Below, piece after piece: positions 1 through 7,538 of a stretch of DNA of 7,538 nt (its first letter is position 1; each line of letters starts with the position of its first letter). The DNA is taken from positions 1 to 7,538 of the forward strand of contig CAMPIF010000201.1 in NCBI GenBank assembly GCA_946886245.1, given 5' to 3'. A program made the translations under genes and the position numbers. This stretch comes from Ectopseudomonas composti. Its GTDB lineage: Bacteria > Pseudomonadota > Gammaproteobacteria > Pseudomonadales > Pseudomonadaceae. Below the pieces are notes generated by a model. The model ran no database searches and was not told where the DNA came from. It saw only the letters and a program-made list of their open reading frames with translations.

Positions 1-517
1 CGGCGACGTTCTTGCGCCACACCACCTTGCCGGTGTCCTTGTTCAGCGCCACCAGCTTGGCGTCGAGGGTGCCGAAGATCACCAGATCGTCGTACAGGGC
101 AACGCCACGGTTGATCACGTCGCAGCAGGGGCGGATGTCGTCCGGCAGGCGCGCCTCGTACTGCCACAGTTCCTTGCCGGTACGCGCGTCGACGGCGAAC
201 ACCCGCGAGTAGGAGGCGGTGACGTACATCACGCCGTCCTTGATCAGCGGCTGGGCCTGTTGGCCGCGCTGCTTCTCGCCGCCGAAGGACATGGTCCACA
301 CCGGGCGCAGTTCCTTGACGTTCTGATCGTTGAGGATGTTCAGCGGGCTGTAGCGCTGGCCCTGCAAGCCCAGGCCGTTGGTGACGATCTCGTCGGTGGT
401 GGTGGCGTCCTTGAGAATCTCGGCGTCGGTGACCGCCAGCGCGGCGGCGGACGGCAACAGCATGGCGGCACAAAGTGCGGTGAGGAGGAAGGGCTGGCGA
501 AGACCGGCGTGTTTCAT
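1..517 (-). CDS. pedH: PQQ-dependent (quinoprotein) alcohol dehydrogenase, N-terminal part, PedH-like, cut by window edge
   Basis: Only the first 172 codons are present; the gene continues beyond position 1. Quinoproteins of this family oxidise alcohols to aldehydes in the periplasm using PQQ and a metal ion. The protein starts with a Sec-type signal peptide (MKHAGLRQ, a hydrophobic stretch, then about AAALA at residues 24-28). Next come [23 protein letters not shown], and [13 protein letters not shown] with the vicinal Cys131-Cys132 pair that forms the disulfide ring beside PQQ. A beta-propeller blade motif, [11 protein letters not shown], follows. It is clearly a paralogue of the dehydrogenase at 4859-6721. 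The ATG at 517 is preceded by GAGG at a suitable distance. The PedH (lanthanide-type) assignment is inferred from gene order and from remembered similarity to P. putida PedH at the N-terminus. The decisive metal-site Asp lies outside the window, so a calcium-type enzyme cannot be excluded. Confidence 0.85.
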
Positions 518-545
518 TGCGGCTACCTCTGCGGGTTCATTGTTA

Positions 546-565
546 TTGCCGGGAATTTTTCCCGG
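546..565 (-). promoter_or_regulatory. Palindromic motif CCGGGAAAnnnTCCCGGCAA upstream of the pedH-like gene
   Basis: Read in the direction of the dehydrogenase gene, the site is CCGGGAAA-AAT-TCCCGGCAA. Its core is a perfect 7-bp inverted repeat (549-555 with 559-565) around 3 nt. It ends 28 nt before the ATG, so it could be an operator near the promoter or a hairpin in the 5' leader. The same motif, with the same orientation and 17 of 20 bases identical, occurs upstream of exaA at 4708-4727. The repetition upstream of two co-functional genes is seen directly; the regulatory role is inferred. Confidence 0.5.
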
Positions 566-631
566 TCTGCCGCAAATTCTTGGCTCGCACAGGCCACCCA
601 ACAATTGCACCCCTAGCCGATTTTCCTCGTT

Positions 632-640
632 CCTTGGTAG
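632..640 (-). promoter_or_regulatory. CTACCAAGG element upstream of the pedH-like gene
   Basis: In pedH orientation, CTACCAAGG-A lies 114 nt before the start codon. The same nine bases lie 111 nt before the cytochrome c gene (4641-4649), in the same orientation. TACCAAG is loosely like the TACYNMT heptamer bound by NarL/LuxR-type response regulators, the class (ExaE/AgmR, PedR2) that controls these genes in other pseudomonads. The link is speculative. Confidence 0.3.
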
Positions 641-734
641 CAATACCTGCTCCACAGGCTGCAATCATGGAGATTGCGGCGGCCACGGCTTTGCCTGACA
701 CTTGGCCGCCCGCACATTCTGACCGGAGACGCCC

Positions 735-1121
735 GTGCCCCATCCTCGCCAGGAAATCCTCAACCATCCCGATGCACTGGACTGCACGGTCTATCGCCCC
801 GACGAGCAGGACCCGGATGCCGAAGAGCAGGATCTGGGCGACGCCAAAGTCCTCATCACCGGCGCCTTCGAGCCGCCGCAGGACTGGGATGCGAACCAGC
901 GCGAGGACTACTACGGCGAAGAAGACCCCACGCACTTCGTCACGGCCCACATCGAATGCGTGGCCAAGCCCGCCACCCGGGAATTCTTCATGCCCGACAG
1001 CGGTGACTACGTGGCCGTGCAGTCCGGCCTGGGCGACGTGGTGATGTATTACGTCTACGACCACGAAGAGACCGAGCACGGCCGACACTACGTGCTGATT
1101 CGTGACGACGAAGAGCTTTAG
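735..1121 (+). CDS. Small highly acidic hypothetical protein
   Basis: The product is 128 residues and I do not recognise its family. About a quarter of the residues are Asp or Glu (roughly 32), against about 8 Lys or Arg, so it should be strongly acidic. It has no signal peptide or membrane segment and is probably cytoplasmic. It has two cysteines (in ALDCTVY and IECVAK) and ends in a charged RDDEEL tail. The start is GTG at 735: an in-frame TGA at 720-722 rules out anything further upstream, and GGAG at 725-728 is a good ribosome site. The gene is transcribed away from the pedH-like gene and converges on the metallohydrolase gene. From memory, it has no counterpart between the equivalent genes of the P. 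putida ped region. Codon use and GC content look like those of its neighbours, which supports a real gene, but the function is open. Confidence 0.7.
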   Translation: MPHPRQEILNHPDALDCTVYRPDEQDPDAEEQDLGDAKVLITGAFEPPQDWDANQREDYYGEEDPTHFVTAHIECVAKPATREFFMPDSGDYVAVQSGLGDVVMYYVYDHEETEHGRHYVLIRDDEEL

Positions 1122-1134
1122 CTCCCGGCATACC

Positions 1135-1194
1135 GTGGGAGGCGCTTCAGCGGCGACGCCCTTATACGCAAGTCGCGGCTAAAGCCCCTCCCAC
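1135..1194. repeat. Inverted repeat pair, GTGGGAGG(G/C)GCTT family
   Basis: The left arm at 1135-1156 pairs with the right arm at 1173-1194. The arms agree at 19 of 22 positions and are separated by 16 nt. The arms begin GTGGGAGG and end CCTCCCAC. A further single copy of the same sequence family lies at 6766-6787. This resembles the short palindromic intergenic repeats common in Pseudomonas. Confidence 0.75.
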
Positions 1195-1205
1195 AAGAGC
1201 AGCCT

Positions 1206-1265
1206 GTAGACCGGATGAAATCCGGGGGTAGCGAGCATATTTCTCCCGGATTTCATCCGGGCTAC
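1206..1265. repeat. Inverted repeat pair, GTAGCCCGGATGAAATCCGGG family
   Basis: The arm at 1206-1226 pairs with the arm at 1245-1265 at 20 of 21 positions, across an 18-nt spacer. Each arm is itself a small palindrome (CCGGAT...ATCCGG), so both local hairpins and one long stem are possible. Sequences of this type are, from general knowledge, frequent intergenic repeats in Pseudomonas. Confidence 0.8.
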
Positions 1266-1280
1266 GAAGCTGGTGCTCCT

Positions 1281-1334
1281 GTAGGAGCCGGCTTGCCGGC
1301 GATAAAACACCATCGCCCGCAAGCGGGCTCCTAC
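1281..1334. repeat. REP-like inverted repeat pair overlapping the metallohydrolase stop codon; possible two-way terminator
   Basis: The arm at 1281-1303 pairs with the arm at 1312-1334 at 21 of 23 positions, with an 8-nt A-rich spacer. The arms start GTAGGAGCC and contain inner mini-hairpins CCGGCTTGCCGG and CCCGCAAGCGGG. The right arm covers the stop codon of the metallohydrolase gene (1331-1333). Lying between convergent genes, the structure could stop or protect transcripts from both sides. There is no clear T-run, so intrinsic termination is uncertain. Confidence 0.75.
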
Positions 1335-2260
1335 GGGTTGGTATCCACCCGCGCCATGGCGTTGCGCTCGTAGCGCGGGTAGAGATGGCTGACGCTGCGG
1401 ATCAGCTCGTAACGACTCAGACTGACCTGGGCGAAGCGCTCGGGGATGGGGGCGCGGATCAGCTCGTTCATCTCCGCGCCCTGCTCCGCCCCCTCACGCA
1501 GCAAACCATCGAGCCAGTCCAGGTAATCACGCATCTGCACGAACGGCGCCGCATCCGTGGTCACTGGCCCGTGGCCGGGCACGATCTGCTTCCAGGGCAA
1601 CGCTTCGAGCCGATCCAGGTCGGCCAGCCATACATCCAGTCCCGGACTGTTCGGCGTGGTCAGTGCGCGCTGATAGAACAGGACATCGCCGGCGAACAAC
1701 ACGCCCGTGCGCTCGTCGAGAATCGCCAGGTCGGCGCCAGTATGCCCGCGCAGCGCCAGCAGTTGCAGGCGCCTGTCGCCGATCGCAAGTACGCCTTCCT
1801 GTATCTCTTCGGTGGGCAGCACCACCTCGGTGCCACGCATCCAGTCGCCGACCAGGCGGTACATGTTCTCCGCCATCGCATCGCCCTGCTCGGCCAGCAA
1901 CCGGGTGGTCTCGGGTAGCGCCGCGATGGGCGCGTCAGCGAAAGCCTGGTTGCCCAGCACATGATCCGGGTGGTGATGGGTCAGCAACACACGTACCACG
2001 GGCTTGCCAGTGGTTTTCTCGATGCTCTGGCGCAACGCTTCACCGAAACGACGCGACGGGCCGGTATCGATCACCACCACCCCGTCCGCAGTTTCGATGA
2101 AGCCGATATTGACGATATTGCCGCCGTTTTCCACAGCGAAATTATCGGTACTGCCTTCCAGCAGCCAGACGCCATCGGCGATTTGTCGGGGTTGCAGGTG
2201 GTAGTCGAGTGCCTGGGCCAGGCTGGCAAACAGGCACATCATCAATAGCATCCAGCGCAT
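1331..2260 (-). CDS. Exported zinc metallo-beta-lactamase-fold hydrolase of the quinoprotein-associated (SoxH-related) type
   Basis: The 309-residue product starts with a hydrophobic signal peptide (MRWMLLMMCLFASLAQA), so it should act in the periplasm. The full metal-binding set of the metallo-beta-lactamase fold is visible: HHHPDH at 95-100 (H95, H97, D99, H100), GHT with H173, AGD with D192, and PGHGP with H230. The enzyme should therefore bind two metals and be active. The family matches what is annotated as quinoprotein relay system zinc metallohydrolase, related to SoxH; its substrate is not established. The start at 2260 was preferred over an ATG at 2290 because AGGAGG sits 5 nt upstream and the signal peptide begins there. 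It is the last gene of the minus-strand operon, 54 nt after the SoxYZ-like gene. I infer that it acts on something carried by that protein. It is probably not a beta-lactamase. Confidence 0.85.
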   Translation of the reverse strand: MRWMLLMMCLFASLAQALDYHLQPRQIADGVWLLEGSTDNFAVENGGNIVNIGFIETADGVVVIDTGPSRRFGEALRQSIEKTTGKPVVRVLLTHHHPDHVLGNQAFADAPIAALPETTRLLAEQGDAMAENMYRLVGDWMRGTEVVLPTEEIQEGVLAIGDRRLQLLALRGHTGADLAILDERTGVLFAGDVLFYQRALTTPNSPGLDVWLADLDRLEALPWKQIVPGHGPVTTDAAPFVQMRDYLDWLDGLLREGAEQGAEMNELIRAPIPERFAQVSLSRYELIRSVSHLYPRYERNAMARVDTNP

Positions 2261-2281
2261 GGAAGCCTCCTGGGTGGGGTT

Positions 2282-2302
2282 GGTGCGCACGGCGCACCCT
2301 AC
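2282..2302. repeat. Short hairpin repeat GGTGCGCAC-GGCGCACC in the intra-operon gap
   Basis: A 7-bp stem (2282-2288 with 2292-2298) and a 3-nt loop, followed by CTAC, match a short palindromic repeat type common in Pseudomonas intergenic DNA. It lies between the SoxYZ-like gene and the metallohydrolase gene. It could affect read-through or mRNA stability within the operon. Confidence 0.55.
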
Positions 2303-2314
2303 AGGCTGCAGCGT

Positions 2315-3064
2315 TCAGAACGCGGCCTGAAATTCGTTGCCGTTGTTGTCGCGCAGCCACAGTTCGGCCTGCTGATCGCCGCGCAGGTCGAAGGTAAGCG
2401 TCGGGTTCTCGCTAACCGCCGGGAACAGTTCGAGGCGTCCCAGCACCTGGCCGTTCGGATCACGCAGTTCGGCCTGTTCGATGTAGAACTCGGGGATGCC
2501 GCCAACCAGGCCGTTATCCATCGGGTGCGAGACCTGCAGGCGCAGGCGGCTGTCCTCACCGCGCACGAAGCGTTTGCCCAGCACCTGGCCCAGACGCTCC
2601 TCCCAGCCGGCCTCCGCACGAACCACGCTGGGCGCTGTGCACCCACCGCCTGCTGCCTCGACGCGAGCCGAGCCGATATGCCAGACGCCATCGTCGGTGA
2701 GCACCGCCGCGCGAATCGGCGTGGCCTGCTCGACCCGAATGCGAATGGCCAGGCTCGGCTCCAGGTGCTCGCCAGGGGCGAAATCGAGAATACGCGGGAT
2801 AGGATTGAGCTCGGCCCAGGCGAGAATGCGCTTGACCTTGCCGCGGTAGGCGCTGGCGTCGATCTGGATCGGCACCTGGCGCGCATCCTCGGCGAATGGC
2901 GGCACCTCGAGGCGAACCTTGTCGTCGAAGACGAAGGCCTCACCGTTCAGTAGACGCTGGTGGTAGTAATCCCACATCACCGAGGTGACCGGATCTGGCG
3001 CGGCCGCCCGCGCCTCCCAGGCCCAGGCGAACAGGGCCAGCAACATCAGGCTACGCCAATCCAT
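2315..3064 (-). CDS. Quinoprotein dehydrogenase-associated SoxYZ-like carrier protein
   Basis: The 249-residue exported protein has a signal peptide ending near EARA (residues 17-20). The first part resembles SoxY. It ends in GGGC at 139-142, like the GGCGG swinging arm that carries sulfur intermediates on cysteine in SoxY. The second part resembles SoxZ (VSHPMDNGL at 178-186, then FPAVSENPTLTFDLRG at 214-229). It therefore looks like a SoxY-SoxZ fusion with the carrier arm between the domains instead of at the C-terminus. Cys142 is the only cysteine in the whole precursor, which fits a covalent carrier role. GGAGG with 6 nt spacing marks the ATG at 3064. The gene is 21 nt downstream of the binding-protein gene and 54 nt upstream of the hydrolase gene. 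No other sox genes (soxA, soxX, soxB, soxCD) are present, so thiosulfate oxidation is unlikely. The carried group is unknown. Confidence 0.85.
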   Translation of the reverse strand: MDWRSLMLLALFAWAWEARAAAPDPVTSVMWDYYHQRLLNGEAFVFDDKVRLEVPPFAEDARQVPIQIDASAYRGKVKRILAWAELNPIPRILDFAPGEHLEPSLAIRIRVEQATPIRAAVLTDDGVWHIGSARVEAAGGGCTAPSVVRAEAGWEERLGQVLGKRFVRGEDSRLRLQVSHPMDNGLVGGIPEFYIEQAELRDPNGQVLGRLELFPAVSENPTLTFDLRGDQQAELWLRDNNGNEFQAAF

Positions 3065-3085
3065 CGCCCACCTCCGGCTCGACTC

Positions 3086-3958
3086 TTATTGGTATTGTTC
3101 TGGCTTCTCGTAACGCAGCCCGTAGCGCGCGTACAGGCGCTCCAGCGAGCCATCGAGAATCAGGTTTTCCAGCTGTTCTTCCAGGGCATAGGCCAGTTGG
3201 CGATTGGTTTCGTGTACCGCCATGCCGATTTCCCAGACCTGCCGGCCCATGTCCGGGTAGGCGTTTTCCGCCAGCGCCAGTTGCGGGTCATTGGCCTCGT
3301 GCACCAACCAGTCGACCTCACCACGCAGCGCCATCACCGCATCCACCTCACCGCCGCGCATGGCAGCAAAGGCCAGGCTCGGCGTCGGGTAATGCCGGGT
3401 TTCCTGGCTGAGCATGCCGCCCTGCACCGAACTCAGGTAGAACGAGGGCACACTCTCGACTTCGACGCCCACCGGATGCTGGCGCAACGCAACGATGCTC
3501 GGCACTTCGGGTAGACGCCGACGATCGAAGGCCAACTGCCAGCGCTCGCGCTGGTAGGGACCGAACATCACCACGCGCTCGTTGACCAACTCACCCAGTT
3601 CATTGCGCATCTGCGCGTAGTCACGGTCGTACGGCACGCGCAGCATCAGATCGGCCAACTGACCCTGCGCAGTCACCCGGCCACGCCAGATGTAGTCACG
3701 CAGGTCGTCGTCGAGCTTTTCACCCGGCGGCGCCCACATGAGCTCCAGCTTCAGGCCGAGCCCTTCGGCCAGTGCCTTGGCCAGCTCGTAGTCGACGCCG
3801 CGCGGCTGGCCATCCTGCTCGTAGCTGTAAGGCGGGAAGCTCTGGTACAGCGCCACGCGCAGGGTGCCCGACTCGGTGATGCGGTCAAAATCGCGCACCT
3901 GTGCCTGAGCAGTGCCCAGGCACAGCAGCAGAGCCCAAAAAGCGATCAGCCGGCGCAT
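3086..3958 (-). CDS. Quinoprotein dehydrogenase-associated periplasmic substrate-binding protein (MxaJ/XoxJ-like)
   Basis: The 290-residue product has a signal peptide (MRRLIAFWALLLCLGTAQA) and the fold signature of family 3 solute-binding proteins. VRDFDRITESGTLRVALYQSFPPYSY is followed by GVDYELAKALAEGLG, the usual start of lobe 1. GEVDAVMALRGEVDWLV near residue 210 fits the second half. No ABC permease or ATPase gene is nearby. Its place directly in a PQQ-dehydrogenase operon points to the group represented by MxaJ/XoxJ, which interacts with or matures the dehydrogenase; a transport role is less likely. The ATG at 3958 was chosen because the signal peptide starts there. The frame stays open to an upstream ATG at 4219, but that extension crosses the cytochrome gene and encodes no plausible leader. 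No strong ribosome site precedes 3958, which may reflect the palindromic element just upstream. Confidence 0.85.
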   Translation of the reverse strand: MRRLIAFWALLLCLGTAQAQVRDFDRITESGTLRVALYQSFPPYSYEQDGQPRGVDYELAKALAEGLGLKLELMWAPPGEKLDDDLRDYIWRGRVTAQGQLADLMLRVPYDRDYAQMRNELGELVNERVVMFGPYQRERWQLAFDRRRLPEVPSIVALRQHPVGVEVESVPSFYLSSVQGGMLSQETRHYPTPSLAFAAMRGGEVDAVMALRGEVDWLVHEANDPQLALAENAYPDMGRQVWEIGMAVHETNRQLAYALEEQLENLILDGSLERLYARYGLRYEKPEQYQ

Positions 3959-3964
3959 TGCGCG

Positions 3965-4109
3965 AGCGCTTATGAAGAAATCGTCGCGAGCGATGGCAGG
4001 TCGCGCAGGGCCTGCGCACAGCAAGCGGAATGTATTGAAATACATGAGCATTGCGAGCACCGCCGAAACGCGAGATGCCGAGCGCAGCAGATTTATCATC
4101 AAGCGCTTA
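3965..4109. repeat. Imperfect palindromic element of about 145 nt between cytochrome and binding-protein genes
   Basis: The gap between the two genes is symmetric about 4037.5. The core is a perfect 7-bp inverted repeat, ATGTATT-GA-AATACAT (4030-4036 with 4039-4045). Further out, GCAA (4021-4024) pairs with TTGC (4051-4054). GGCAGGTCGCG (3995-4005) faces CGCGAGATGCC (4069-4079) at 9 of 11 positions. AAATC (3978-3982) faces GATTT (4090-4094). AGCGCTT (3965-3971) faces AAGCGCT (4101-4107). AGCGCTTA is also an 8-bp direct repeat at both edges (3965-3972 and 4102-4109), overlapping the cytochrome stop codon. A local hairpin GCGCAG-GGC-CTGCGC lies at 4003-4017. This layout fits a small inserted palindromic element or a structured intra-operon RNA. 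I do not recognise a named family. Confidence 0.6.
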
Positions 4110-4529
4110 CTCCTCGACGTGCACACTCTCCAGATAGCTGCGCACCGCCCACAGCGCTTCCTGACTGAGGAAGTCAGCCATCTTCGGCATGTACACGCGG
4201 CCATCGCGCACCGCGCCATTGATCACGCGCTCCTTGAACCATTCGTCACCGCTGGCCCCCAGCTCCAACAGGCGCAGGTCCGGGGCGATACCACCGGATT
4301 TGGCCTCCAGGCCGTGGCAGGCGGCGCAGTTCTGGTTGTACGCCGAGGAGCCGATCTCGATGGCGCGCGGGTTGTCGCGGTAGGGGTTCTCGTCCAGCCA
4401 CTCTTCACCCAAGGGTTCCAGCCCATCGGTGTTCACCGCCTGCGGCACCACGTCGCCGTGTGCCCAGAGGGTGGTCGACGCAGCGAGCAGCAGCAACGCC
4501 AGGGTGGTTTTGATCTTCTTGTTGTTCAT
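4107..4529 (-). CDS. exaB: Cytochrome c550, electron acceptor of the quinoprotein ethanol dehydrogenase
   Basis: The 140-residue precursor has a signal peptide (MNNKKIKTTLALLLLAASTTLWA) and a single haem c site, CAACH at 68-72. Met114 or Met117 in YMPKM is the likely sixth haem ligand. The protein is a class I, single-haem cytochrome that takes electrons from PQQ alcohol dehydrogenase in the periplasm and passes them on toward a terminal oxidase. The length and the divergent position beside exaA match exaB of P. aeruginosa and pedF of P. putida. The start at 4529 is preferred over the upstream ATG at 4604: GAGG lies 8 nt before it and a proper signal peptide starts there. It is the first gene of the minus-strand operon with the binding protein, SoxYZ-like protein and hydrolase. 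Its stop codon overlaps the edge repeat of the palindromic element that follows. Confidence 0.9.
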   Translation of the reverse strand: MNNKKIKTTLALLLLAASTTLWAHGDVVPQAVNTDGLEPLGEEWLDENPYRDNPRAIEIGSSAYNQNCAACHGLEAKSGGIAPDLRLLELGASGDEWFKERVINGAVRDGRVYMPKMADFLSQEALWAVRSYLESVHVEE

Positions 4530-4640
4530 GGCCAGGACCTCATCGAATACACGTAAGACAGCCCGTTCAGAGCTCGTGACGACCATCTTAGAAAGGCCGC
4601 GCAACGCACCGAATGCTGCTTTGGTGGTCGCGCTCTAGTC

Positions 4641-4649
4641 CCTTGGTAG
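4641..4649 (-). promoter_or_regulatory. CTACCAAGG element upstream of the cytochrome gene
   Basis: In exaB orientation the sequence CTACTACCAAGGGACTAG contains CTACCAAGG, 111 nt before the start codon. It has partial dyad symmetry (CTAnTnCCnnGGnAnTAG). The same nine bases stand 114 nt upstream of the pedH-like gene in the same orientation (632-640). It is a candidate activator site for co-regulation; nine bases alone could match by chance. Confidence 0.35.
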
Positions 4650-4707
4650 TAGGGCTTGGGTGGGGGTGTGCGTGATGCCTTGGCAGCAAGGCCAAGTCAT
4701 GTGCCGG

Positions 4708-4727
4708 CCGGGAAATCCTCCCGGCAA
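4708..4727 (+). promoter_or_regulatory. Palindromic motif CCGGGAAAnnnTCCCGGCAA upstream of exaA
   Basis: The site reads CCGGGAAA-TCC-TCCCGGCAA in exaA orientation. The inverted repeat is GCCGGGA (4707-4713) with TCCCGGC (4719-4725). It matches 17 of 20 bases of the site upstream of the pedH-like gene (546-565), including the non-palindromic trailing CAA. It ends 131 nt before the ATG, a distance that suits an upstream activator site. Regulatory function is inferred from the repetition only. Confidence 0.5.
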
Positions 4728-4729
4728 GG

Positions 4730-4744
4730 GCGGGAGTTTTTCCG
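4730..4744 (+). promoter_or_regulatory. Degenerate second copy of the palindromic motif
   Basis: GCGGGAGTTTTTCCG resembles the opposite-strand reading of the pedH site (GGGAATTTTTCCCG at 551-564). It is centred about 21 bp, two helical turns, downstream of the stronger copy. That spacing would place two regulator dimers on the same face of the DNA. The match is weak. Confidence 0.25.
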
Positions 4745-4858
4745 TAGGCGCAAAGGTGGCCGGGTACCACCATCGGCTTGCCACTGCAGAACCTCTCCAG
4801 CACCGCGTTCTCACGGTGCCACTGCAGCGACCTACCACCTCCAATGGGAAGCACAACG

Positions 4859-6721
4859 ATGACAACAAGAAACCTACCCAGCACCCCACGTCCCCTGGCG
4901 CTTGCCCTGATGCTGGCCGGCGGCCTGGCGCTGAGCCAGGGCGCGATCGCCAAGCCGGTGACCTGGGACGACATCGCCAACGACCACACCACCACCAGCA
5001 ACGTGCTGCAGTACGGCTTGGGCACCAATGCCCAGCGCTGGAGCCCGCTGGCTCAGGTGAACGCCGAAAACGTGTTCAAGCTGACGCCGGCCTGGAGCTA
5101 CTCCTTCGGTGACGAGAAACAGCGCGGCCAGGAATCCCAGGCCATCATCCACGACGGCGTGGTCTACGTGACCGGCTCCTACTCGCGGGTCTTCGCCCTG
5201 GATGCCAAGACCGGCAAGCGCCTGTGGACCTACAGCCATCGCCTGCCCGACGACATCCGCCCGTGCTGCGACGTGGTCAACCGTGGCGCCGCCATCTATG
5301 GCGACAAGATCTACTTCGGCACCCTCGACGCCCGCGTCGTGGCGCTGAACAAGGACACCGGCAAGGTGGTCTGGAACAAGAAGTTCGGTGATCACTCTGC
5401 CGGCTACACCATGACCGGCGCCCCGACCATCGTCAAAGATGGCAAGAGCGGCAAGGTGCTGCTGATCCACGGCAGCTCCGGTGACGAATTCGGCGTGGTC
5501 GGCCGCCTGTTCGCCCGCGACCCGGATACCGGCGAGGAAGTCTGGATGCGTCCGTTCGTCGAAGGCCACATGGGCCGCCTGAACGGCAAGGACAGCACCC
5601 CGACCGGTGACGTCAAGGCGCCGAGCTGGCCGGATGATCCCAACCACCCGACCGGCAAGAAGGAAGCCTGGAGCCAGGGCGGCGGTGCGCCGTGGCAAAG
5701 CGCCAGTTTCGATGCCGAAACCAACACCATCATCATCGGCGCTGGCAACCCGGCACCCTGGAACGGCTGGGCGCGCACCAGCGACGGCGGCGACCCCAAG
5801 GACTACGACAGCCTGTACACCTCCGGCCAGGTCGGTGTCGACCCCACCACCGGTGAAGTGAAGTGGTTCTACCAGCACACCCCGAACGATGCCTGGGACT
5901 TCTCCGGCAACAACGAGCTGGTGCTGTTCGACTACAAGGACAAGGACGGCAAGGTCACCAAGGCCACCGCCCACGCCGACCGCAACGGCTTCTTCTATGT
6001 GGTCGACCGCGCCAACGGCAAATTGAAGAACGCCTTCCCCTTCGTCGACAAGATCACCTGGGCCAGCCACATCGACCTGGAAACCGGTCGTCCGGTCGAG
6101 AACGAGGGCCAGCGCCCGCAGAAGCCGAAGCCAGGCGAAAGCAAGGGTGAAGTGGTCGAGGTCTCCCCACCCTTCCTCGGCGGCAAGAACTGGAACCCCA
6201 TGGCCTACAGCCAGGACACCGGCCTGTTCTACGTACCGGCCAACCACTGGAAAGAGGACTACTGGGCCGAAGAGGCGCACTACAAGAAAGGCTCCGCGTA
6301 CCTGGGCATGGGCTTTCGCATCAAGCGCCTGTTCGACGACCACGTCGGCATCCTGCGCGCGATGAACCCGACCACCGGCAAGGTCGCCTGGGAACACAAG
6401 GAGCGCCTGCCGCTGTGGGCCGGCGTACTCGCCACCAAGGGCAACCTGGTGTTCACCGGCACCGGCGACGGCTACTTCAAGGCCTTCGACGCCAAGAACG
6501 GCGAGGAGCTGTGGAAGTTCCAGGTCGGCACCGGGATCATCTCCCCGCCCGTCACCTGGGAACAGGACGGTGAGCAGTACATCGGCGTGACCGCCGGTTA
6601 CGGCGGCGCCGTGCCGCTGTGGGGCGGCGACATGGCCGACCTGACCAAGCCGGTCGCCCAGGGTGGTTCCTTCTGGGTGTTCAAGCTGCCGAGCTGGGAC
6701 AAGACCACCGCCAAACGCTAG
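4859..6721 (+). CDS. exaA: PQQ-dependent quinoprotein ethanol dehydrogenase (ExaA/PedE type)
   Basis: The 620-residue precursor has a 31-residue signal peptide ending in GAIA, before KPVTWDD. It is an eight-bladed beta-propeller that oxidises ethanol and other alcohols in the periplasm and passes electrons to cytochrome c550. If cut after residue 31, the key residues fall at the mature positions known from P. aeruginosa ExaA: vicinal Cys136-Cys137 (mature 105-106), Glu210 (179), Asn297 (266) and catalytic Asp347 (316). Asp347 lies in WDFSG, so the residue two after it is Ser349. Lanthanide enzymes have Asp there, so this is the calcium type. Repeated blade motifs such as [20 protein letters not shown] and [10 protein letters not shown] are visible. 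The ATG at 4859 has GGAAG 7 nt upstream; an in-frame TTG at 4778 and ATG at 4844 are less suitable. It is divergent from the cytochrome operon. Confidence 0.95.
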
Positions 6722-6732
6722 TGGCTGAACGC

Positions 6733-6754
6733 ATGGCGCACCTGGGTGCGCCAT
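6733..6754 (+). terminator. Perfect 10-bp hairpin just after exaA
   Basis: ATGGCGCACC (6733-6742) and GGTGCGCCAT (6745-6754) form a perfect stem with a 2-nt gap, 11 nt past the exaA stop codon. There is no T-run, so it may act as a 3' stabilising structure or a repeat relic instead of an intrinsic terminator. Confidence 0.5.
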
Positions 6755-6765
6755 ACGCGCTGCCT

Positions 6766-6796
6766 GTGGGAGGGGCTTCAGCCGCGACCGCCTCCC
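6766..6796 (+). repeat. GTGGGAGGGGCTT-type repeat between exaA and the pentapeptide gene
   Basis: Positions 6766-6787 belong to the same family as the inverted repeat arms at 1135-1156 and 1173-1194. Here it forms a stem of GGGAGG (6768-6773) with CCTCCC (6791-6796) enclosing a GGCT/AGCC mini-hairpin. It ends 14 nt before the ribosome site of the next gene and could limit read-through from exaA. Confidence 0.55.
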
Positions 6797-6821
6797 CCAT
6801 CAATTCATCCGAGGACTCGCC

Positions 6822-7481
6822 ATGAACTACCTGCCCCTGCTTATCCCGGTCCTGCTGCTGGTAATCGGCAGCCACGCCATCGGCGCCGAAACCGAGAGCG
6901 ACGGCGTCCTGCAGATCAATGGCTGCCGCATCGAACCCGACAGCAAATGTCCCAACGCCAACCTGCGCGGTGCCGACCTGCGCAATATGGACATGCGCCG
7001 CATGGACCTGTCCGGCGCCGATCTCTCCGGCGCCGACCTGCGCCACGTCAATCTCGACCTGGCCAATCTGGAAAAGGCCAAGCTGCGCGGCGCCAACCTC
7101 ACCCGCGCCAGCCTGCAACAGAGCAACCTGCGCCTGGCCGACCTCTCGGGCGCCAGCCTGGTGGCCATCAGCGGCTGGGCCCTGTTCGCCCAGGCTGCGC
7201 AATTCGAAGGCGCCGACATGCGCGCCGCCAACCTGGAGTTCGCCCGCCTCTCCGGGGCCAAGCTGCACAACGTCCAACTGCAGGCGGCCAATCTGGAAAT
7301 GACCTGGCTGAGCAAGGCCGACCTCAAGGGCGCGCACCTGGAAGACGCCAATCTGCAGGAAGTCAAGCTCGGCGGCTCCAACCTGGAAAACGCCAACCTC
7401 AGCGGCGCCCGTACCCGCTTCGGCAACTTTCAGGACGCCAACATGCCCGGCTGCGTGCAATGCCCAAAGGGTTGGGACTGA
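6822..7481 (+). CDS. Exported pentapeptide-repeat protein
   Basis: The 219-residue protein has a signal peptide (MNYLPLLIPVLLLVIGSHAIGA). It then has many tandem A(D/N)LxX repeats that should fold as a right-handed quadrilateral beta-helix. Block one covers about residues 46-113 and block two about 127-205. They are split by a non-repeat stretch, VAISGWALFAQAAQ. Four cysteines frame the helix: C35 and C43 before it (GCRIEPDSKC), and C211 and C214 after it (PGCVQCPKGWD). In the periplasm these could form disulfides that cap both ends. GAGGA 6 nt before the ATG supports the start. It lies 100 nt downstream of exaA on the same strand, with two hairpins between. From memory, a pentapeptide-repeat gene also neighbours pedE in P. 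putida (there called PP_2673), which suggests a conserved link to the dehydrogenase. Its function is unknown. Confidence 0.85.
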   Translation: MNYLPLLIPVLLLVIGSHAIGAETESDGVLQINGCRIEPDSKCPNANLRGADLRNMDMRRMDLSGADLSGADLRHVNLDLANLEKAKLRGANLTRASLQQSNLRLADLSGASLVAISGWALFAQAAQFEGADMRAANLEFARLSGAKLHNVQLQAANLEMTWLSKADLKGAHLEDANLQEVKLGGSNLENANLSGARTRFGNFQDANMPGCVQCPKGWD

Positions 7482-7499
7482 TTCCCCGGAAACCACGTA

Positions 7500-7534
7500 G
7501 GGTGGGCCGGACGGCGATCCGCTTCAGCCCACCC
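7500..7534. terminator. Hairpin repeat after the pentapeptide gene
   Basis: GGGTGGGC (7500-7507) pairs perfectly with GCCCACCC (7527-7534). A nested CGGA/TCCG stem (7508-7511 with 7518-7521) lies within. It starts 18 nt after the stop codon and resembles the GTAGGGTGGGC...GCCCACC repeats frequent in Pseudomonas. It may end the transcript, though no T-run is visible before the window stops. Confidence 0.5.
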
Positions 7535-7538
7535 AAAG

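Follow-up and report, generated by a model that had tools for sequence, protein, structure and literature searches.

What does a protein built like the sulfur carrier of the Sox system do among genes for alcohol oxidation? The question is raised by a stretch of DNA from Ectopseudomonas composti (GenBank assembly GCA_946886245.1, contig CAMPIF010000201.1, positions 1 to 7,538 of the forward strand; all 7,538 nucleotides are referred to as the window), in which one gene encodes a fused SoxYZ-like carrier and lies in a ped/exa cluster. In methylotrophs and pseudomonads, the oxidation of alcohols by pyrroloquinoline quinone (PQQ) enzymes is important, and a demonstrated function for this companion system was not found in the open-licence literature searched. 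The comparison of genomes reported here narrows the question. The carrier, a SoxH-like metallohydrolase, and a rhodanese-fold protein with a CX3CW loop (together, the trio) are co-inherited with PQQ alcohol dehydrogenases, the trio is not tied to lanthanide enzymes, and the cysteine on the arm of the carrier (Cys142) has outlived the metal site of the hydrolase. The carrier itself is a typical member of an already known family, TIGR04557, and no feature distinguishing it from other members was found. What makes it interesting is the cargo of Cys142, together with the natural contrasts among genomes that make this cargo directly testable.

The carrier and its arm cysteine

The carrier matches TIGR04557 (quinoprotein dehydrogenase-associated SoxYZ-like carrier) at 212.5 bits against a cut-off of 140, over positions 1-226 of the 226 in the profile, and falls below the cut-offs of the canonical profiles for SoxY (TIGR04488, 53.3 versus 125 bits) and SoxZ (TIGR04490, 29.9 versus 76 bits). 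Pfam SoxY matches residues 37-142 (94.7 bits), with the match ending exactly at Cys142, and Pfam SoxZ matches residues 168-247 (37.9 bits). A preliminary description of the window, made from its letters alone, had proposed a SoxYZ-like fusion in which the arm has become an interdomain linker, with the motifs HPMDNGL and PAVSENP in the SoxZ-like part, and had called the protein a quinoprotein companion. The Pfam domains and both motifs agree with this, as do the family assignment and the PQQ alcohol dehydrogenases encoded in the window. In the AlphaFold2 model, compared with structures 2oxh and 1v8h, a SoxY fold (residues 29-142) is joined to a SoxZ fold (residues 158-249), so that an unrelated fold, which that description had named as evidence to the contrary, was not found. 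Cys142 sits in the interdomain loop and superposes on residue 110 of SoxY; cys110 is the sulfur-binding residue of canonical SoxY (PMC11237559).

Cys142 is the sole cysteine of the carrier and lies within GGGC (residues 139-142); the translated frame bears out the preliminary description on this point and supplies the strand, minus, that it had omitted. Both folds and the position of the cysteine are like those of canonical SoxY and SoxZ (2oxg/2oxh, 4uwq), and the swinging-arm principle is presumably shared. Unlike the canonical pair, the carrier is one chain in which TAP and another domain come after the cysteine; 107 further residues, including the SoxZ domain, follow Cys142 and hence there is no free C-terminal arm. 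Fused forms named SoxYZ-S2 and S4, for which a role in carbon metabolism was inferred (PMC11237559), and PP_2677 of Pseudomonas putida (PMC12997753) belong to the same family and have the same neighbors. Leader sequences suggest that the carrier is periplasmic. Its ATG is preceded by GGAGG, and 21 nucleotides separate the stop codon of the binding-protein gene from the carrier start.

Cys142 is invariant in the carrier frames of 108 of 108 loci, comprising 78 Pseudomonadaceae loci and 30 from the phylum sample described below, with at least two genes counted twice (G001 as L001/L102 and G011 as L031/L106), and an alignment of 43 members with identities as low as 22% retains it throughout. Absence of this residue from orthologues in other ped/exa clusters had been named in the preliminary description as evidence to the contrary; it is present in all of these loci and in all 20 readable divergent loci discussed below. 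In 75 of the 108 carriers no other cysteine occurs in the profile-matched part, a further 32 have extra cysteines only in the first ten residues (leader), and in a single carrier (L103) the protein body holds another. The arm sequence is C-[ST]-A-P in 105 of the 108, C-A-A-P in one, and C-T-V-P in two.

Co-inheritance, lanthanide enzymes, and joint loss

An even draw of 299 Pseudomonadota genomes was searched with five profiles (TIGR04557, TIGR04558, TIGR04559, TIGR03865, and TIGR03075). TIGR04557 was over its cut-off in 54 genomes; the 33 without an internal stop are counted as encoding the fused carrier (33/299), and the other 21 are assumed to be cases in which distinct soxY and soxZ genes were read through as one. 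A SoxH-like hydrolase was over cut-off in 14 genomes with TIGR04558 and in 21 with TIGR04559, and the union of the two sets is exactly the 33 carrier genomes. The CX3CW rhodanese (TIGR03865) was over cut-off in 30 genomes, all inside the 33 (those without it are G039, G250, and G265), with a wide gap among the matches listed between the lowest score in the set (134.9 bits) and the next (59.2 bits). PQQ alcohol dehydrogenases (TIGR03075) were over cut-off in 67 of the 299 genomes, including all 33 that encode the carrier. Fisher p values for the carrier versus the hydrolase, the rhodanese, and the dehydrogenase were 1e-44, 3.5e-38, and 1.6e-25, respectively, uncorrected for kinship, as is every Fisher test in this analysis.

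The hydrolase gene adjoins the carrier gene in 30 of the 33 genomes and a PQQ alcohol dehydrogenase gene instead in the other three (G111, G115, and G186). G163 and G290 each encode three carriers and three rhodaneses, with every carrier gene next to a rhodanese gene. In G001, the genome closest to the window, about 12 kb separate the carrier and rhodanese genes, which would place the latter outside the window. The trio itself is already published: PP_2677, PP_2678, and PP_2666 of P. putida, that is, the carrier with a TIGR04558 hydrolase and a TIGR03865 (PQQ_CXXCW) rhodanese, are treated together in PMC12997753 as consistently associated with such dehydrogenase systems, and the genome-wide profiles are what is added here. 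As side observations, G163 and G290 (L290-L292) have only two hydrolases over cut-off despite their three carriers and three rhodanese genes, and an ABC (ATP-binding cassette) ATPase (TIGR03864) and a beta-propeller protein (TIGR03866), both belonging to the PQQ-dependent system, are repeatedly found in the vicinity of the carrier in L283-L302 (10 and 8 of 20 loci, respectively, with one representative of each identified).

Could the trio serve only lanthanide-type dehydrogenases of the PedH/XoxF class? All 131 dehydrogenases over the cut-off were read for their metal-site motif, and an aspartate two residues after the catalytic aspartate (DxD) was taken as the sign of lanthanide use, an assumption that follows the XoxF/ExaF literature. 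By this sign, 32 of the 33 carrier genomes (all but G074) encode a lanthanide-type dehydrogenase as compared with 18 of the 34 other genomes with PQQ alcohol dehydrogenases (Fisher p 3e-5, likewise uncorrected for kinship), and relevance of the trio genes with lanthanides has been suggested (PMC12997753). However, PedH was not found in 18 Pseudomonadaceae genomes searched for it, where the best matches were WDFS enzymes (PedE) with 55-59% identity (loci L251-L258 did not match the metal-site pattern applied in this comparison); three of these genomes (L052, L062, and L064) are metagenome-assembled, for which absence is weaker. All 18 keep the carrier and the hydrolase, and also the rhodanese, which was present in 21 of the 21 genomes searched for it. 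The trio is therefore not lanthanide-specific; dependence on lanthanide enzymes alone is contradicted, unless those 18 genomes use another lanthanide enzyme that was missed, and we regard it as highly improbable. The occurrence of the trio in genomes lacking PedH thus goes against the suggestion made in PMC12997753.

It is PedG, a solute-binding protein, that follows PedH. Among the 78 Pseudomonadaceae loci, 54 have both PedG and PedH, 20 have neither, and 4 have PedG alone. Two of the 20 loci with neither (L042 and L053) are on short contigs, and the other 18 are those whose genomes were searched. For three of the four PedG-only loci PedH is encoded elsewhere in the genome, and the fourth (L035) was outside the PedH search. 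The PedG-like protein, present in 58 of the 78 loci, thus tracks the PedH-like dehydrogenase rather than the carrier and is a candidate for a partner specific to lanthanide-dependent enzymes.

A second contrast is provided by genomes without the rhodanese. In all 30 carrier genomes with the rhodanese, the partner hydrolases retain every metal-ligand residue (G306 was judged by eye). In all three without it the metal site of the partner hydrolase is broken, with Asn and Tyr in place of two histidines and Gly in place of the bridging aspartate. A second partner hydrolase of G265 is broken in another pattern. G039 and G265 also hold other hydrolases below the family cut-offs, one of which, lying some 4 kb away from SoxB in G265, was read and is complete. 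Of 130 genomes from the taxonomic family to which G250 belongs, 21 encode the hydrolase, these three among them. Within the HxHxDH stretch, Asn and Tyr are substituted in 21 of the 21, and the Asp-to-Gly change was seen in 16 of 21, the search pattern being unmatched in the other five. None of the 21 genomes has a TIGR03865 rhodanese over cut-off, with matches below it (at most 51 bits) in six. All but one of the 21 loci (the exception, L322, is a shorter piece) showed a carrier gene next to the hydrolase gene, and all 20 of these carriers, each readable, keep Cys142 in GGGC, followed in 18 by T-V rather than by T/S-A. Most of the broken-site cases share one pattern and probably reflect one ancestral event, and the second broken copy in G265 may represent a separate one. 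The broken-site hydrolases beside intact-cysteine carriers (L288, L289, L298, L299, and L303-L323) form a natural group of pseudo-enzymes within the family of G250.

Retention of Cys142 despite loss of the metal site in the hydrolase speaks for a maturation or redox role that requires no cargo, in which the carrier and the rhodanese would help to establish or restore the vicinal disulfide in the dehydrogenase, or would stabilize cofactor loading. Such a role has been proposed (PMC12997753), and a dehydrogenase with the vicinal cysteine pair is encoded in 33 of the 33 carrier genomes. The pair does not discriminate, being present in 123 of the 131 dehydrogenases over cut-off, including those of genomes without the trio, and a maturation role leaves the otherwise conserved metal site of the hydrolase unexplained; we consider it rather unlikely.

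A proposed hydrolyzed adduct on Cys142 and its possible cargo

The reading that we favor, with confidence about evenly balanced, is that the carrier is a periplasmic Sox-like thiol carrier serving PQQ alcohol dehydrogenases, with an adduct on Cys142 that is removed by hydrolysis and a thiol that is serviced by the rhodanese. It is based on the family and fold of the carrier, the position and invariance of Cys142, the co-inheritance of the trio, the complete ligand set of the window hydrolase, and the joint loss of rhodanese and metal site. In the proposed cycle, Cys142 on its flexible arm, the loop between the SoxY and SoxZ domains, would be loaded with a covalent adduct that originates at the dehydrogenase or close to it; in a SoxB-like step, the SoxH-like metallohydrolase would hydrolyze the adduct off Cys142; and the dithiol protein with the CX3CW rhodanese fold would keep Cys142 as, or return it to, the free thiol in a SoxS-like step. 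The set of players (an oxidase and its cytochrome, plus a thiol carrier, metallohydrolase, and dithiol protein) is shaped like the Sox cycle and the nearest relatives of the hydrolase are hydrolytic, and a hydrolyzed Cys142 adduct is therefore favored. The hydrolase model has a pLDDT (predicted local distance difference test) of 95 and its closest folds are hydrolytic members of the superfamily; no ETHE1-type (persulfide dioxygenase) names were among the best 60 sequence matches or the best 50 fold matches listed. The CX3CW motif is present in 23 of 23 readable rhodanese sequences (L282, in a wrong frame, was excluded), followed by x-S-W-N in 22 of them. The protein has a rhodanese domain in which the first cysteine of this motif aligns with the Cys of the FHC stretch in YgaP, at a weak E-value of 5e-4, and the G001 protein has a signal-peptide-like start. 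The dithiol step finds a parallel in SoxS, which acts on SoxYZ according to a title in the reference list of PMC11582611.

Several observations weigh against this proposal. No cargo, adduct, or enzyme assay was found in the open-licence literature searched, and transposon mutants of the trio genes in P. putida showed minimal phenotypes when short-chain alcohols were supplied in the absence of rare earths (PMC12997753). The carrier is absent from 34 of the 67 genomes with PQQ alcohol dehydrogenases and is therefore an optional accessory. Further, none of the 15 genomes in which all dehydrogenases over cut-off have DxT, which we take to be the signature of type-II-like enzymes, encodes the carrier or the trio. 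The match between profiles is partly circular, given that the NCBIfam cut-offs of these families may, we presume, have been set with such phylogenetic profiles. G265, another genome with three carriers, has no rhodanese over cut-off. Lastly, the persistence of Cys142 where both rhodanese and metal site are lost means that at least one function of Cys142 needs neither. We read this last point as placing the rhodanese and hydrolase catalysis on a single branch of the cycle, with Cys142 also being used outside it.

As to cargo, an aldehyde-derived thiohemiacetal or acyl thioester ranks narrowly above a sulfur species. Both are mostly sub-cases of the thiol-carrier proposal, and the likelihoods attached to them overlap with it and are not to be added.

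Under the first, which we hold only tentatively, aldehyde from the dehydrogenase would add to Cys142 as a thiohemiacetal that is oxidized to an acyl thioester, from which a thioesterase resembling glyoxalase II would free the acid. The system would then parallel glutathione-dependent aldehyde oxidation, but in protein-bound form and in the periplasm. The comparison is a working analogy only: the glyoxalase II system likewise combines a thiol adduct with a hydrolase of the metallo-beta-lactamase fold, the thiol in the carrier system being that of a protein. PQQ dehydrogenases can, however, oxidize aldehydes without any carrier, the SoxY chemistry known so far is sulfur chemistry, and the turnover of thioesters needs no rhodanese except for keeping the thiol reduced. 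Type-II-like dehydrogenases should also yield aldehydes, yet the 15 all-DxT genomes lack the trio. The complete periplasmic relay, in which an aldehyde on Cys142 becomes a protein-bound acyl thioester that is cut by the SoxH-like hydrolase while the CX3CW rhodanese keeps the thiol reduced, is more doubtful; it would represent repurposed Sox machinery switched from sulfur to carbon.

Alternatively, Cys142 might act as a guard, taking up sulfite, thiosulfate, or sulfane sulfur that threatens PQQ or the vicinal disulfide, with the rhodanese moving the sulfur on and the hydrolase releasing sulfate or sulfite as SoxB does. The kinship to SoxYZ and SoxH and the presence of a rhodanese partner suit this possibility, as does the alkylsulfatase SdsA1 (2cg2) at rank 5 in the fold search with the hydrolase. 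Thiosulfate inhibits growth of Hyphomicrobium on methanol (cited by PMC11237559 and PMC12997753), and SoxH compensates for missing SoxB in Sulfurimonas CVO (cited by PMC11237559). SoxB is over cut-off somewhere in 13 of the 33 carrier genomes of the phylum sample, at its nearest by coordinates about 22 kb from the carrier (G194) and otherwise farther away or on other contigs; against a sulfur guard, 20 of the 33 lack it. Among 20 Pseudomonadaceae carrier genomes (representing 20 of the 78 loci) none has SoxB over cut-off, with weak matches below it in 11. The preliminary description had placed the carrier outside any sulfur-oxidation locus, and for the gene surroundings this stands, with no canonical sox gene over cut-off among the seven window proteins scanned; for whole genomes it has to be qualified by those 13. 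A search of the 33 carrier genomes for sulfur transporters (PF04143) gave matches in 25, none of them beside the carrier; the shortest distance was about 18 kb, in G194. A SoxYZ fusion, SoxH, and YeeE-like PmpAB are close together in Hyphomicrobium, in a group that was concluded to encode PQQ-dependent alcohol catabolism instead (PMC11582611). The CX3CW loop of the rhodanese also tells against a sulfur guard. Thiosulfate sulfurtransferases have a basic active loop, which this is not. Such a guard would be needed by type-II-like PQQ enzymes too, yet their genomes are without the trio, an absence that neither an aldehyde nor a sulfur cargo explains. We hold a sulfur cargo to be only slightly less likely than an aldehyde-derived one.

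Gene surroundings in the window

All the partners named in the preliminary description, namely PQQ dehydrogenases (one complete and one cut by the edge), a cytochrome, a binding protein, and a metallohydrolase, are encoded in the window (Table 1). The layout is identical in Pseudomonas sp. 8O (L001), with DNA that is 97% identical across window positions 1-6758, and agrees with the P. putida ped order listed in PMC12997753. This identity assigns the window to the P. mendocina/sediminis group. The hydrolase gene lies directly downstream of the carrier gene on the same strand; its product scores 427.2 bits with TIGR04558 against a cut-off of 300, and all seven metal-ligand positions are filled (H105, H107, D109, H110, H183, D202, and H240). 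The full orthologue in L001 of the truncated PedH-like gene has WDFD, presumably the lanthanide type, and the WDFS motif of the complete PedE/ExaA-like dehydrogenase is presumably the calcium type.

Table 1. Coordinates of features in the window and of the parts of the carrier.
Feature	Position	Strand	Remarks
PQQ alcohol dehydrogenase, second (PedH-like)	2..517	-	start only, cut by left window edge
SoxH-like metallo-beta-lactamase-fold hydrolase (TIGR04558)	1331..2290	-	likely start 2260, picked by eye
SoxYZ-like carrier gene (TIGR04557)	2315..3064	-	249 aa, ATG start; open reading frame and profile matches
SoxZ domain of carrier, residues 158-249	2318..2593	-	
Interdomain linker of carrier, residues 143-157	2594..2638	-	mean pLDDT 71 for block 141-150
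Cys142 codon, arm motif GGGC-TAP	2639..2641	-	invariant in 108/108 loci
SoxY domain of carrier, residues 29-142	2639..2980	-	
Signal-peptide-like N-terminus of carrier, residues 1-21	3002..3064	-	sequence and modelled helix 3-17; cleavage site putative
Family-3 solute-binding protein (PedG-like)	3086..3958	-	profile matches; start picked by eye
Cytochrome c-550 PedF (TIGR04494)	4107..4604	-	likely start near 4529, picked by eye
PQQ alcohol dehydrogenase (PedE/ExaA-like)	4778..6721	+	complete; vicinal Cys pair, WDFS metal-site motif
Pentapeptide-repeat protein (PedD-like)	6822..7481	+	profile matches; name from PMC12997753

An open reading frame of 128 amino acids (735-1121, plus strand), between the hydrolase and PedH-like genes, recurs with 86-98% identity in 19 of the 78 Pseudomonadaceae loci, in relatives of the P. 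mendocina group, and has no NCBIfam or Pfam match at an E-value of 0.01. Downstream of the hydrolase gene, at 1140-1340, are GC-rich palindromes of the types CCGGATTTCATCCGG and GCCCGCAAGCGGGC, which resemble repeated extragenic elements.
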